In this document: positions 50,312 through 54,168 of the stretch, piece by piece
Numbering within the stretch: the first letter of the stretch is position 1
Layout of the letters: every line of letters begins with the position of its first letter
Assembly: GCA_036490175.1 (NCBI GenBank)
Contig: DASXEJ010000144.1
Location: 1-56,834 of the forward strand
Reading direction: 5' to 3'
DNA length: 56,834 nucleotides
DNA from: Pirellulales bacterium
GTDB lineage: Bacteria > Planctomycetota > Planctomycetia > Pirellulales > JACPPG01
The notes under the pieces: generated by a model
Told to the model about the DNA's origin: nothing
The model's database searches: none
Seen by the model: only the letters and a program-made list of their open reading frames with translations
Program-made: the position numbers and the translations under genes

Positions 50312-50405
50312 GCTTGCCAGCCAGAGTACAAAATGGCTGTGGAGCAATGTCCGGCCAGCGAACGCGGGTCGGTAGCTGCGCAATATCTCCGTGAGGAACC
50401 TGTCA

Positions 50406-52718
50406 ATGAGCTTCGATCGAAATACGTATCTGCTACGCGCCGCGGGCATTCTTTCAGTTGTCGCGTTGGCAACGGCCGTGAGCGCGGTCGAGCCACTGCC
50501 GTTGGTCAGCGGCGTCGAGTTGCAGCCAGTTCGGGCGCAGGTAGATCGTGTTGCTCAAGCACTCGAGTTGGCAGGAGCACCGCTCACGCCCGAGCAGCAA
50601 CAGTCGCTCAAAACGGCTTACGCTGAGCAGGATGCGGAGAAGAGCCTGGCCGAGATTCAGTCCGTTCTGGACCCGCTCTGCCTGGCGGGGGTCACGATCA
50701 ATCCGGAAAGCCGCGTCAAGGTTGCCGCAGGGCAGGCTGAGAAGAATCTTGTGCAACACGGCTGGCGTGTGTTTCTCGTCAAAGTTGCCAACGAAGCCGG
50801 CGTTACGGCCCCGCTGCGCGTCACCAGCCCCAACGCTGCTAAACTTCACAAATCCTCTAGCGGCAATCCGGCGCCGCCCCAATCGATCACTCCACAGGAT
50901 GTCGGCGAGCGATGGCTCGATGTGCAATTAACCACCTCTCAGCCTCTCAACAAGGAATTGTCGGGCTTGCCGCTCGAGTATCGATTGATCGAACTCTACA
51001 GTCGCGATGTCGGCCAGCGCGAAGCAAAGCTGATGTTCGACGTTGGGCAAGGAACCCAAGATCTTGGCTTTCGCAACGAGCTGAACGTCCTCTTTAATTG
51101 TGAGCCTGCCGTGCATGTGGCGTTGGAAGTTTTGGATGTCGACGGCCAGCCGACGACCGGGCAATTCGTCTTTCGTGACCAATTGGGGCGCGTTTATCCG
51201 TCTCGGGCGCGGCGCATGGCACCGGACCTCTTTTTCCACGATCAGATTTATCGCCACAGCGGCGAGACTGTGCTGCTGCCCCCCGGTAAGTTCACGGTGA
51301 CCTATTCACGCGGGCCGGAGTATCGGATTCTAACTCGCGAGATCGAAGTTCCGCACGCAGCCACGCATCGCGAAAGCTTTCGCCTTGAGCGGTGGATCAA
51401 GCTGGCCGATCACCGATGGTATTCCGGCGATCATCACGTCCATAGCGCCGGTTGCGCGCACTACGAATCGCCAGCCGAAGGAGTGCAGCCCGAGGATATG
51501 ATGCGGCATATTCAGGGCGAAGATCTGAATATCGGCTGCGTATTGTCGTGGGGACCGTGCTGGTATTTTCAGAAGCAGTATTTCGAAGGCAAAGTCAGCG
51601 CGCTCTCGACTCCTACCAACTTGATGCGATATGACGTCGAAGTTTCCGGGTTCCCTAGTTCGCACTGCGGCCATCTGTGCTTGCTGCGATTAAAGGAAGA
51701 CGATTATCCCGGCACAACCAAGATCGAAGAGTGGCCCAGTTGGGATCTGCCTGTGTTGAAGTGGGGCAAAGAGCAGGGGGGCATCGTTGGCTACTCGCAC
51801 AGCGGCTGGGGACTGCAAGTTCCGGCAACGACGCTACCCACCTACGACATGCCCCCCTTCGACGGCATCGGGGCGAACGAGTACATCGTGGACGTCGTTC
51901 ACGATGCGTGCGACTTCATTTCCGCAGTCGACACCCCGTTCGTATGGGAAATGAACATCTGGTATCACACACTCAACTGCGGCTACACGTGTCGCATCAG
52001 TGGCGAGACGGACTTTCCCTGTATCTACGGCGAGCGTGTCGGGCTGGGCCGCGCCTATGTCAAACTGAAGGGGAGCGCCGACCAACCCCTCAATTACGAC
52101 GAATGGGCCCTAGGTATTCGCGACGGTCGCAGCTATTGCACCGATGGGCTGGCGCATTTGTTCGACTTTACTGTCAACGATCTCGGGGTCGGCGAGCCTG
52201 GGGCCGGGGGCCGGGCCAGCAAGTTGGCCGTCAAGGCGGGCGACAAATTGCCAATACGCGTCCGCGCCGCGGCGATGCTTGAAGAAAAGCCGCGCGATGA
52301 CATTCGCCGCCGCAAGCTTGATCAGAAGCCGTATTGGCATGTCGAGCGGGCTCGCGTCGGTGAATCGCGCAAAGTACCGGTCGAGTTGATTGTTAACGGT
52401 CGCGTCGTCGAAACACGCGAAATCGAGGCCGACGGTCACATCGCCGATTTGCAATTCGATTACGTCCCGCAAGCGTCTTGTTGGATCGCCCTGCGCGTCT
52501 TCGCCGCGGCGCATACAAATCCTGTGTTTGTCGAAGTCGACAAAAAGCCGATTTGTGCCAGTCGTCGCAGCGCGCAGTGGTGCCTCGATGCGGTCGACGT
52601 GTGCTGGAAGCAAAAGGTGCGCAATACGCGCGAAAGCGAGCAGCCCGCGGCCGCCGCGGCTTATGAGGTGGCGCGGCAGGCCTATCGCAAGGCTCTGGCC
52701 GAGGCGCCGGCCGAGTGA
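50406..52718 (+). CDS. Exported CehA/McbA-type metallohydrolase (PHP-like)
   Basis: This 770-residue secreted protein has a signal peptide (about residues 1-29, VSA-V) and an N-terminal helical/beta region of some 280 residues. A PHP-superfamily domain follows. 'YSGDHHVHSAGCAHYESP' is the metal-binding HxH start of the CehA/McbA group, with later His/Cys sites in 'SGFPSSHCGHLCLL', 'GIVGYSHSGWGL' and 'EMNIWYHTLNCGYT'. Members include carbaryl hydrolase, but most have no known substrate. ATG 50406 has GAGGA nine bases upstream; GTG 50391 is less likely. The C-terminus ends in an Ala/Arg-rich helix. Confidence 0.82.
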   Translation: MSFDRNTYLLRAAGILSVVALATAVSAVEPLPLVSGVELQPVRAQVDRVAQALELAGAPLTPEQQQSLKTAYAEQDAEKSLAEIQSVLDPLCLAGVTINPESRVKVAAGQAEKNLVQHGWRVFLVKVANEAGVTAPLRVTSPNAAKLHKSSSGNPAPPQSITPQDVGERWLDVQLTTSQPLNKELSGLPLEYRLIELYSRDVGQREAKLMFDVGQGTQDLGFRNELNVLFNCEPAVHVALEVLDVDGQPTTGQFVFRDQLGRVYPSRARRMAPDLFFHDQIYRHSGETVLLPPGKFTVTYSRGPEYRILTREIEVPHAATHRESFRLERWIKLADHRWYSGDHHVHSAGCAHYESPAEGVQPEDMMRHIQGEDLNIGCVLSWGPCWYFQKQYFEGKVSALSTPTNLMRYDVEVSGFPSSHCGHLCLLRLKEDDYPGTTKIEEWPSWDLPVLKWGKEQGGIVGYSHSGWGLQVPATTLPTYDMPPFDGIGANEYIVDVVHDACDFISAVDTPFVWEMNIWYHTLNCGYTCRISGETDFPCIYGERVGLGRAYVKLKGSADQPLNYDEWALGIRDGRSYCTDGLAHLFDFTVNDLGVGEPGAGGRASKLAVKAGDKLPIRVRAAAMLEEKPRDDIRRRKLDQKPYWHVERARVGESRKVPVELIVNGRVVETREIEADGHIADLQFDYVPQASCWIALRVFAAAHTNPVFVEVDKKPICASRRSAQWCLDAVDVCWKQKVRNTRESEQPAAAAAYEVARQAYRKALAEAPAE

Positions 52719-52832: not shown

Positions 52833-52855
52833 ACCAGCCAACAGCGAGAATTTGC

Positions 52856-52885
52856 TTGACCCTTTTGAGGGCGTTTGCATAGTAT
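52856..52885 (+). promoter_or_regulatory. Sigma70-type promoter of the structured leader
   Basis: TTGACC (52856-52861), 18-bp spacer, TAGTAT (52880-52885). Both boxes match well, and transcription would begin near 52892. It points to the mini-ORF and hairpin array downstream, and ultimately to the TPR gene at 53275. Confidence 0.65.
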
Positions 52886-53005
52886 GCACTGGTCGCAGGT
52901 GTCGTGGGCTAACGTGGTCCCGACCGGACTAGAGGCCCGCCGAGAAGCCGGTTCTGGAATCGGCAGTCCAGCGGGGAGGCTCTAGAGGAAGGAGGTGGTC
53001 CCTAT

Positions 53006-53038
53006 ATGTGTAGTCCATTCCAGAGGTGGCTCGTCTGA
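53006..53038 (+). CDS. Ten-codon mini-ORF (leader peptide candidate)
   Basis: ATG 53006 to TGA 53038 encodes MCSPFQRWLV. The upstream AGGAAGGAGGTGGTCC (52986-53001) would pair with 14 of 16 bases of the consensus 16S rRNA 3' tail, with GGAGG ten bases before ATG. Such complementarity is exceptional for a ten-residue product. A hairpin starts two bases after the stop codon. A ribosome on the ORF would cover or free that hairpin, as in attenuation. The peptide holds Cys, Trp and Arg, but no run of one amino acid. Confidence 0.45.
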   Translation: MCSPFQRWLV

Positions 53039-53039
53039 C

Positions 53040-53070
53040 GCATCAGCCGACGGGCTGCTGATGCTTCTTT
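53040..53070 (+). terminator. Attenuator-like hairpin after the mini-ORF stop
   Basis: GCATCAGC (53040-53047) pairs with GCTGATGC (53057-53064) around a 9-nt loop, followed by TTCTTT (53065-53070). Because it starts two bases after the mini-ORF stop, ribosome position could decide whether it forms. Confidence 0.5.
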
Positions 53071-53079
53071 CGGGAAGCG

Positions 53080-53101
53080 CGTCAGGCAGCCGATTCTGAC
53101 G
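53080..53101 (+). repeat. Short middle hairpin of the leader
   Basis: CGTCAG (53080-53085) pairs with CTGACG (53096-53101). The loop carries the second copy of CAGCCGA (53087-53093), which is also the sequence in the first and third hairpins. Confidence 0.5.
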
Positions 53102-53110
53102 AGTCTTTAA

Positions 53111-53149
53111 GAAAGCAGCCGACCGTTCGCGGTCGGCTGCTTTCGTTTC
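53111..53149 (+). terminator. Strong intrinsic terminator
   Basis: GAAAGCAGCCGACC (53111-53124) and GGTCGGCTGCTTTC (53131-53144) form a perfect 14-bp stem with a 6-nt loop (GTTCGC), followed by GTTTC. It would end the leader transcript 125 bp before the TPR gene start. Confidence 0.75.
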
Positions 53150-53274
53150 ATAAGCTCTATGCCCTCAGCCGCGCAATTTGCTTGCCGCACTGGCGGCATT
53201 TTGCGAGGATTGACAGCGAGGGCCGGTGTCAATTTAGGCATCGCAGCGATGCGAGGCCGAAGGAGTTCCTGCCG

Positions 53275-54168
53275 ATGACGCGGTTCGCTTTCTCGTGGAG
53301 CAGCTTCCCGGGTGTCAACGCAGTGGTCTGTGGTGCGGTGATAGTTGGCATGTCCGCAGCGCAGGCGACGGCACAGTCTGCCGCTGCATCGCCGGCACAG
53401 GTTCGCAGCGGCGGACAAGCCGCTGTTGAGCGAATCGGGCGCACCGATCCGGCGATTCGCCTTGGGCTGGGCTCCTCCGCGGCCATATCGCCGGTGCCCC
53501 AACTGTCGTTCTATGCGTTCCCGTTCGTTTCGGTCTTCGGCCCGCCGGCGCCAAATCTAGGGTATCCCCAGCCCCTGGGTCATCAGATCATTCCGACTGG
53601 GCCTAATGGTTACATTTATCGACCGGTTGCGAACCTGGGCGATTTTCTCCAACGTGCCGTCGCGGCGCTACGTGAGGCGAATTATGCCCAAGTGCTGGTT
53701 GAGCTCGATCCGCTGTTGACAGAGACGCCGGACGATGGCGACGTGTGGCTGCTCCGCGCCCAGGCGATGTTCGGTCTGGCCGATTACGGCAAGGCGGCCG
53801 AATCGCTGCACGTGGCGTTACGGGTCTTGCCGCGTGAGGAATGGGGCCGGCCCATCGTCAAACGGCGCGACTATTTTCGCTCGCCGGAGGAATACACTGC
53901 CCGCCTGCGTGCGCTAGAAAGTTATGTCCGCCTGCATCCAGACGTCGGAGCCGGTCACTTTCTGCTGGGCTACCATTACGGGTACCTCGGCCGTGCGACG
54001 GAAGCCGAACGGGAGTTGCAAACGGCGCTCCAGCTCATGACCGGCAGTGACGAATTGGCCCACGCGCTGTTGGCCCCAGCCGCAGATACCTCAGCGGCGC
54101 CCAGGCCGCGACCGGGTCTGTTGCTAGACGAAGAGTTGCCACGCACTCAAGGCCCGCGAGAGTTCTGA
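53275..54168 (+). CDS. Exported TPR-repeat protein
   Basis: The 297-residue protein has an N-terminal signal (about residues 8-35, AQA-T or ATA-Q). A linker rich in Pro, Gly and Tyr ('YAFPFVSVFGPPAPNLGYPQPLGHQI') follows, then helical repeats of TPR type: 'LQRAVAALREANYAQVLVELDPLLTETPDDGDVWLLRAQAMFGLADYGKAAESLHVALRVLP' and 'LRALESYVRLHPDVGAGHFLLGYHYGYLGRATEAERELQTALQLM'. It probably binds partner proteins in the periplasm. ATG 53275 has AGGAG nine bases upstream. The structured leader at 52886-53149 lies directly upstream and may control it. Confidence 0.82.
   Translation: MTRFAFSWSSFPGVNAVVCGAVIVGMSAAQATAQSAAASPAQVRSGGQAAVERIGRTDPAIRLGLGSSAAISPVPQLSFYAFPFVSVFGPPAPNLGYPQPLGHQIIPTGPNGYIYRPVANLGDFLQRAVAALREANYAQVLVELDPLLTETPDDGDVWLLRAQAMFGLADYGKAAESLHVALRVLPREEWGRPIVKRRDYFRSPEEYTARLRALESYVRLHPDVGAGHFLLGYHYGYLGRATEAERELQTALQLMTGSDELAHALLAPAADTSAAPRPRPGLLLDEELPRTQGPREF

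Follow-up and report, generated by a model that had tools for sequence, protein, structure and literature searches.

A candidate structured RNA gene of Planctomycetota with a short reading frame behind a complement of the 16S rRNA tail

Results

The window analysed here is a stretch of 56,834 nucleotides (contig DASXEJ010000144.1 of assembly GCA_036490175.1) from a Pirellulales bacterium. Between two same-strand open reading frames (ORFs) at 50391–52718 and 53275–54168 (the latter counted from its likely ATG) lies a gap of ~550 nt, which holds a tract, AGGAAGGAGGTGGTCC (52986–53001), able to base-pair with the entire free 3' tail of 16S rRNA, followed by a ten-codon ORF, ATGTGTAGTCCATTCCAGAGGTGGCTCGTCTGA (53006–53038), that reads MCSPFQRWLV-stop. 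An earlier note on this DNA had located both at these positions. The element it described is real but incomplete: to judge from sequence comparison, tract and ORF form the core of a larger structured RNA, encoded by a free-standing gene that spans ~250 nt here, is usually present in one copy and is conserved throughout the phylum Planctomycetota.

The gene is laid out as a predicted promoter, six helices with two loop contacts, and a strong terminator hairpin, and all its parts, tract and ORF included, lie on the forward strand. The sigma-70-type promoter (TTGACC-N18-TAGTAT, 52856–52885) was predicted by a pattern scan that gave two overlapping hits where 0.2 were expected, and in most members of the family a CTTGAC, CTTGTC or CTTGCC box stands ~18 nt before an AT-rich box upstream of P1. 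The 5' hairpin P1 (52901–52924), with the 7-nt loop UAACGUG (52910–52916), is paired in 96.7% of the cells of a 35-member alignment and shows double changes in 8/8 pairs. P2 (52928–52986), also covarying, encloses P3 and consists of an outer part (52928–52933 with 52981–52986), which is the weakest at 58.6% of cells paired, and an inner part (CCCG 52936–52939 with CGGG 52972–52975; 79%). P3 (52947–52964; 81.6% paired, 5/5 pairs changing on both sides) is a hairpin whose loop UCUGGAAU (52953–52960) is complementary to the ORF bases AUUCCAGA (53017–53024), a contact that we call PK2. The 3' domain (53025–53097) combines P6, in which 53025–53031 pair with a segment beginning AGCC at 53088 (85.5% of cells paired, double changes in 3/7 pairs), with P4, which holds the stop codon and joins 53033–53041 to 53079–53087 (73.7%, double changes in 8/8 pairs). 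The hairpin P5 (CAGCC-GACG-GGCUG, 53044–53057) carries a loop, GACG (53049–53052), that pairs with the P1 loop (PK1). The terminator (53110–53148) appears in the fold as a 15-bp hairpin with an interrupted T tail; it was missed by the scan because it has few Ts, some of them within the stem, and the T runs are longer in several relatives.

The fold is well supported by covariation. Of the 42 pairs in the 35-member alignment, 35 show changes in both partners. Paired cells make up 82.6%, compared with at most 44.8% when the partners are slid, and the covariation score reaches 0.415, where the slid controls do not exceed 0.091; these counts lean towards the model, given that the alignment was fitted to it. 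An unfitted MAFFT alignment gives the same contrast (80.1% paired versus at most 46.8% slid). The PK1 contact is CGU-ACG in 14 alignment rows and CGC-GCG in 18, with no exceptions in the 32 scorable rows; in a wider set, for which counts are approximate because parses were partly corrected by eye, the exceptions are L131 (C-A) and L192 (U.G). Both states occur inside family f2 (L093 versus L073, L076 and L077) and inside family f21 (L109 versus L098 and L118), hence the change arose more than once. PK2 joins the P3 loop to the codons that immediately precede the motif GAGGTGG in the ORF, and the loop varies with these codons: the partners are UCUGGAAU/AUUCCAGA in the window and AUGGCU/AGCCAU, UUGGCA/UGCCAA, UCCGGUU/AACCGGA and CAGGUA/UACCUG elsewhere. 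Complementary runs average 4.88 over 34 distinct ORF tails, compared with 3.80 (sd 0.16) after permutation of the partners, and none of 20,000 permutations reached the observed value. The PK2 contact places the anti-16S tract within a single-stranded span that it closes; in the minimum free energy fold, computed without pseudoknots, the Shine–Dalgarno (SD) sequence is just partly unpaired.

The 16S gene of the host genome is cut by a contig end, and the tail was therefore read from 13 relatives (two congeners and 11 others), in all of which the 16S end is GGATCACCTCC. Among their 15 16S copies, 14 have GGATCACCTCCTTTCT and the other one GGATCACCTCCTTTTT. Against this tail the tract forms 14 Watson–Crick and 2 G·U pairs; both apparent mismatches are A-to-G changes opposite U, so that all 16 positions are able to pair. 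The earlier note, which counted about 14 of 16 bases, thus understated a correct observation, and the match to the 16S tail that it had proposed to check holds for the tails of these relatives. The predicted duplex energy is −28.5 kcal/mol, compared with −28.4 kcal/mol for the perfect complement, while the 31 long ORFs of the window reach −16.4 kcal/mol at best and −8.0 kcal/mol in the median, a generous estimate for which the best of several starts was taken. The sequence AAGGAGGTGRTC occurs only twice in the 7.58-Mb genome, the second time within a coding frame. A near-full anti-16S tract is retained in every confirmed member of the RNA family, and in nearly all of them the complementarity reaches past the usual SD core to GGATC.

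This pairing stands out against an SD-poor background. Planctomycetes have few SD genes (PMC5397173), and over 87 genes from the window and loci L034–L049 (17 regions) the start ATGs barely differ from internal ATGs (median −3.7 versus −3.5), a rough comparison because gene starts were approximated. The earlier note's remark that neighbouring genes have short SDs thus holds.

The ORF lies at the same place in all 83 covariance model hits, with a start codon 11–16 nt past the first base of GGAGG and a length of 10–18 codons up to the stop, and its insertions and deletions come only in threes. Members fall into two types: the distance from start codon to GAGG is 22, 25, 28, 34 or 40 nt in the RGG type (all 1 mod 3) and 14, 17, 20, 23 or 26 nt in the RW type (all 2 mod 3). 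The differences are multiples of three, which argues that the ORF is translated, and the selection to stay open and in frame that marks the ORFs of translated (dual-function) small RNAs is seen here as well. On this evidence from frame conservation, the mini-ORF is evidently translated. The conserved GAGGTGG is read in different frames by the two types. The conserved Cys codon is always TGT and the Gly codon GGT (42/42), and in the other frame the AGG and TGG codons are fixed (25/25). The RGG type is unconstrained in its N-terminal residues, each type has a constant C-terminus (QRWL or QRGG), and Cys-Ser pairs are frequent. The invariant codons and the frame difference between the types indicate that the RNA and its translation are conserved rather than the peptide, which does not appear to be the main product; a role for the peptide would be compatible with the codon invariance.

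The end of the ORF in the window, AGGTGG-CTC-GTC-TGA-C (53022–53039), resembles the prfB (RF2) frameshift site in its spacing. An RF2-like programmed frameshift was rejected, as the +1 frame that follows the stop codon is short and lacks conservation, and TGA, TAA and TAG are all in use as stop codons among members.

In some RGG-type members (L083, L086, L090, L142, L151, L163, L171 and L203) the 16S tail recurs 3' of the core as GGATCACC or GGATCACCT, frequently as part of a hairpin that includes GATCC, and this copy might base-pair with the SD tract of the same RNA; it is absent from the window's genus. Masking of the SD by such a downstream anti-SD was rejected as a general mechanism, being confined to part of the RGG-type members (mean z 0.97).

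A DNA search with 52850–53150 recovered four congeners at 78–87% identity and matches to the core around the tract in about ten other families of the order. A first covariance model, built from 13 members, matched 77/297 genomes of the order. A second model, built from 35 members, matched 306/398 genomes of the class (high quality, 295/386), nearly always with exactly one copy per genome, and 110/392 genomes drawn from the whole phylum in a sample that includes incomplete genomes; model E-values are rough owing to a short calibration, and diverged copies are possible in genomes without a match. The conservation of both ORF and SD, which the earlier note had proposed to look for in relatives, extends across the phylum, and when 30 distant matches were read, 29 had tract and ORF. 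The remaining one (L308 in G384) was a false match. Families f8, f13, f17 and f18 of the order gave weak or no matches, reflecting either loss or strong divergence, and the RNA is hence not strictly universal. Most records found by a pattern scan of named genomes belong to Planctomycetota, Adhaeretor mobilis and Thalassoglobus neptunius among them; the matches outside the phylum were dismissed as chance, as nearly all are without a model match and a lone exception (L197) has E values of 0.65 and 0.89. A member truncated by the start of its contig was also seen in two MAGs labelled Candidatus Kuenenia stuttgartiensis (within the first 260 bases of L135 and of L200), and the label may be wrong.

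A search of Rfam 15 at the gathering cut-off gave no matches for the window and 18 diverse members, and the best sub-threshold ones were unrelated. No description of the RNA was found in the literature searched. One candidate structured RNA, the Rhodopirellula-1 motif, is listed for Planctomycetes and also Proteobacteria and marked as likely cis-regulatory (Weinberg 2010, PMC2864571); the comparison with it covers this listing, in which it has no Rfam accession. The RNA gene thus appears to be previously unlisted, matching no family testable here and differing from Rhodopirellula-1 as that motif is listed.

The genes around the RNA are not conserved. Neighbours differ in the 8–12-kb surroundings of 16 relatives, and clustering of 1,647 flanking frames from 102 loci gave only lineage-level synteny, with at most 10 loci per cluster. 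As no downstream gene is shared across families in the 16 relatives or the 102 loci, the RNA is not the leader of a conserved gene, and the translation-coupled control of a neighbour that the earlier note had considered finds no support.

Discussion

By sequence comparison, a single-stranded linker of the pseudoknotted fold displays the complement of the whole free 16S tail. We propose that 30S subunits with an exposed tail would be captured through the unusually long SD duplex and then initiate. A ribosome translating the mini-ORF would pull open PK2, P6 and P4 on its way to the stop codon, which would give the RNA two forms, one free and folded and one opened by the ribosome. It is probably a housekeeping RNA that engages the ribosome. 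Most likely it would act on those 30S subunits whose tail is free, or report on their supply, as a decoy or a sensor; a decoy must be abundant. That ribosome binding and ORF translation are essential to what the RNA does we regard as very probable. For the explanation as a whole, an RNA gene that captures 30S subunits by the 16S tail, is opened by the translating ribosome and serves as decoy or sensor, we see nearly an even chance, and for the role itself, as a ribosome-pool decoy or sensor, a slightly smaller one. The ribosome capture or sensing of free anti-SD ends suggested in the earlier note would fit the data and is partly supported, considering the phylum-wide pairing with the full tail, the translated mini-ORF, the SD-poor surroundings and the presence of bS21 in all 24 genomes tested.

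Several other readings have to be weighed against this one. Next in order comes a dual-function small RNA, in which the fold or its loops would pair with targets in trans and translation of the mini-ORF would switch this activity on or off. A free-standing gene with predicted promoter and terminator, conserved loops and an ORF coupled to the structure would suit such an RNA, but the conserved loops already have their partners inside the RNA, and we consider it unlikely. The RNA might instead be a messenger for a functional micro-peptide, with the strong SD ensuring high output and the structure stabilizing the message. An ORF that is in frame everywhere, with its type-specific C-terminus and frequent Cys-Ser pair, speaks for a peptide, whereas the reading of GAGGTGG in two frames, the freely varying N-terminus of the RGG type and the fixing of codons where the RNA pairs speak against it and make a messenger rather improbable. 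Following it in the order is a checkpoint or guide in 30S maturation, in which the RNA would test or protect the new 16S 3' end through full pairing and one short round of translation. The extension of complementarity beyond the SD core and the nearly constant single copy, as in a housekeeping RNA, are consistent with this; however, we saw no processing enzyme or linkage to rRNA, and the purely inferential idea is improbable.

The remaining two readings are largely settled by the comparative data. A cis-acting leader or attenuator, whose leader peptide would control a downstream gene, has the classic layout of short ORF and terminator hairpin in its favour, but with neighbours not shared beyond lineages and a predicted promoter of its own at the 5' end it is largely refuted and very improbable. 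Chance resemblance of a purine-rich intergenic stretch to an SD has only the short length of the ORF to recommend it and, given phylum-wide conservation with covariation, it can be set aside with near certainty.

Returning to capture of the 30S subunit, ordinary genes in this phylum depend little on SD pairing, and the RNA may help to explain why the anti-SD is kept there. The purpose of anti-SD pairing in SD-poor bacteria would become directly testable through this RNA gene. A more speculative version of the decoy, which we rate as rather less likely than not, is a phylum-wide housekeeping RNA that would be the ribosome's counterpart of 6S RNA, selecting 30S subunits with an exposed tail, holding them by a duplex with the full tail and being released by translation of the mini-ORF. 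6S RNA (RF00013) is alike in this proposed logic only, as an RNA with a housekeeping role that occupies a central machine, RNA polymerase in its case, by imitating a start site; here the target would be the ribosome, and the two show no match in sequence or structure. RF00013 does not match at the locus, and some of the same genomes have 6S matches elsewhere.

tmRNA (RF00023) is likewise a structured RNA with pseudoknots and a frame of roughly ten codons ending in a stop codon, but the planctomycete RNA has its own start codon and SD and no tRNA-like domain. It is not a tmRNA: the window holds no tRNA or tmRNA, and canonical tmRNA is encoded separately in 12/12 genomes tested, in the host on contig C238. 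With the peptide-coding small RNAs of bacteria (PMC5521070) it shares a short translated ORF, but here the ORF belongs to a conserved tertiary fold, the SD matches the entire 16S tail, and the RNA is phylum-wide and usually single-copy.

A partial parallel is the autoregulation of rpsU, the gene for bS21, in Bacteroidia, where SD-poor genomes likewise have a single transcript whose extended SD pairs with the 16S tail and which, in the proposed logic, ribosomes with an exposed tail use selectively (PMC9976891). The tail in that system would be sequestered by bS21, bS18 and bS6 in mature ribosomes, and of these proteins the analysis covered bS21. In F. johnsoniae the extended SD of rpsU is needed by bS21-lacking ribosomes to initiate and leads to unusually stable complexes (PMC9976891); this gives a precedent both for the stability of such complexes and for a preference for ribosomes that lack bS21. 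The earlier note drew this parallel, and it stands for the extended SD, which pairs with the tail over its full length; it does not extend to the gene, as the RNA is neither rpsU nor the leader of a protein gene. Instead of a ribosomal protein it encodes an ORF of 10–18 codons within a structured, free-standing RNA, and the host has a separate rpsU (L326, G000:C238:48907–49065) with its own SD of −12.3 kcal/mol. Many related genomes have an rpsU SD of 7–10 bp (L318–L340), with none in family f16 (G078 and G088). Most other genomes have a single rpsU-like gene, and G054 has five (L319, L342 and L345–L347).
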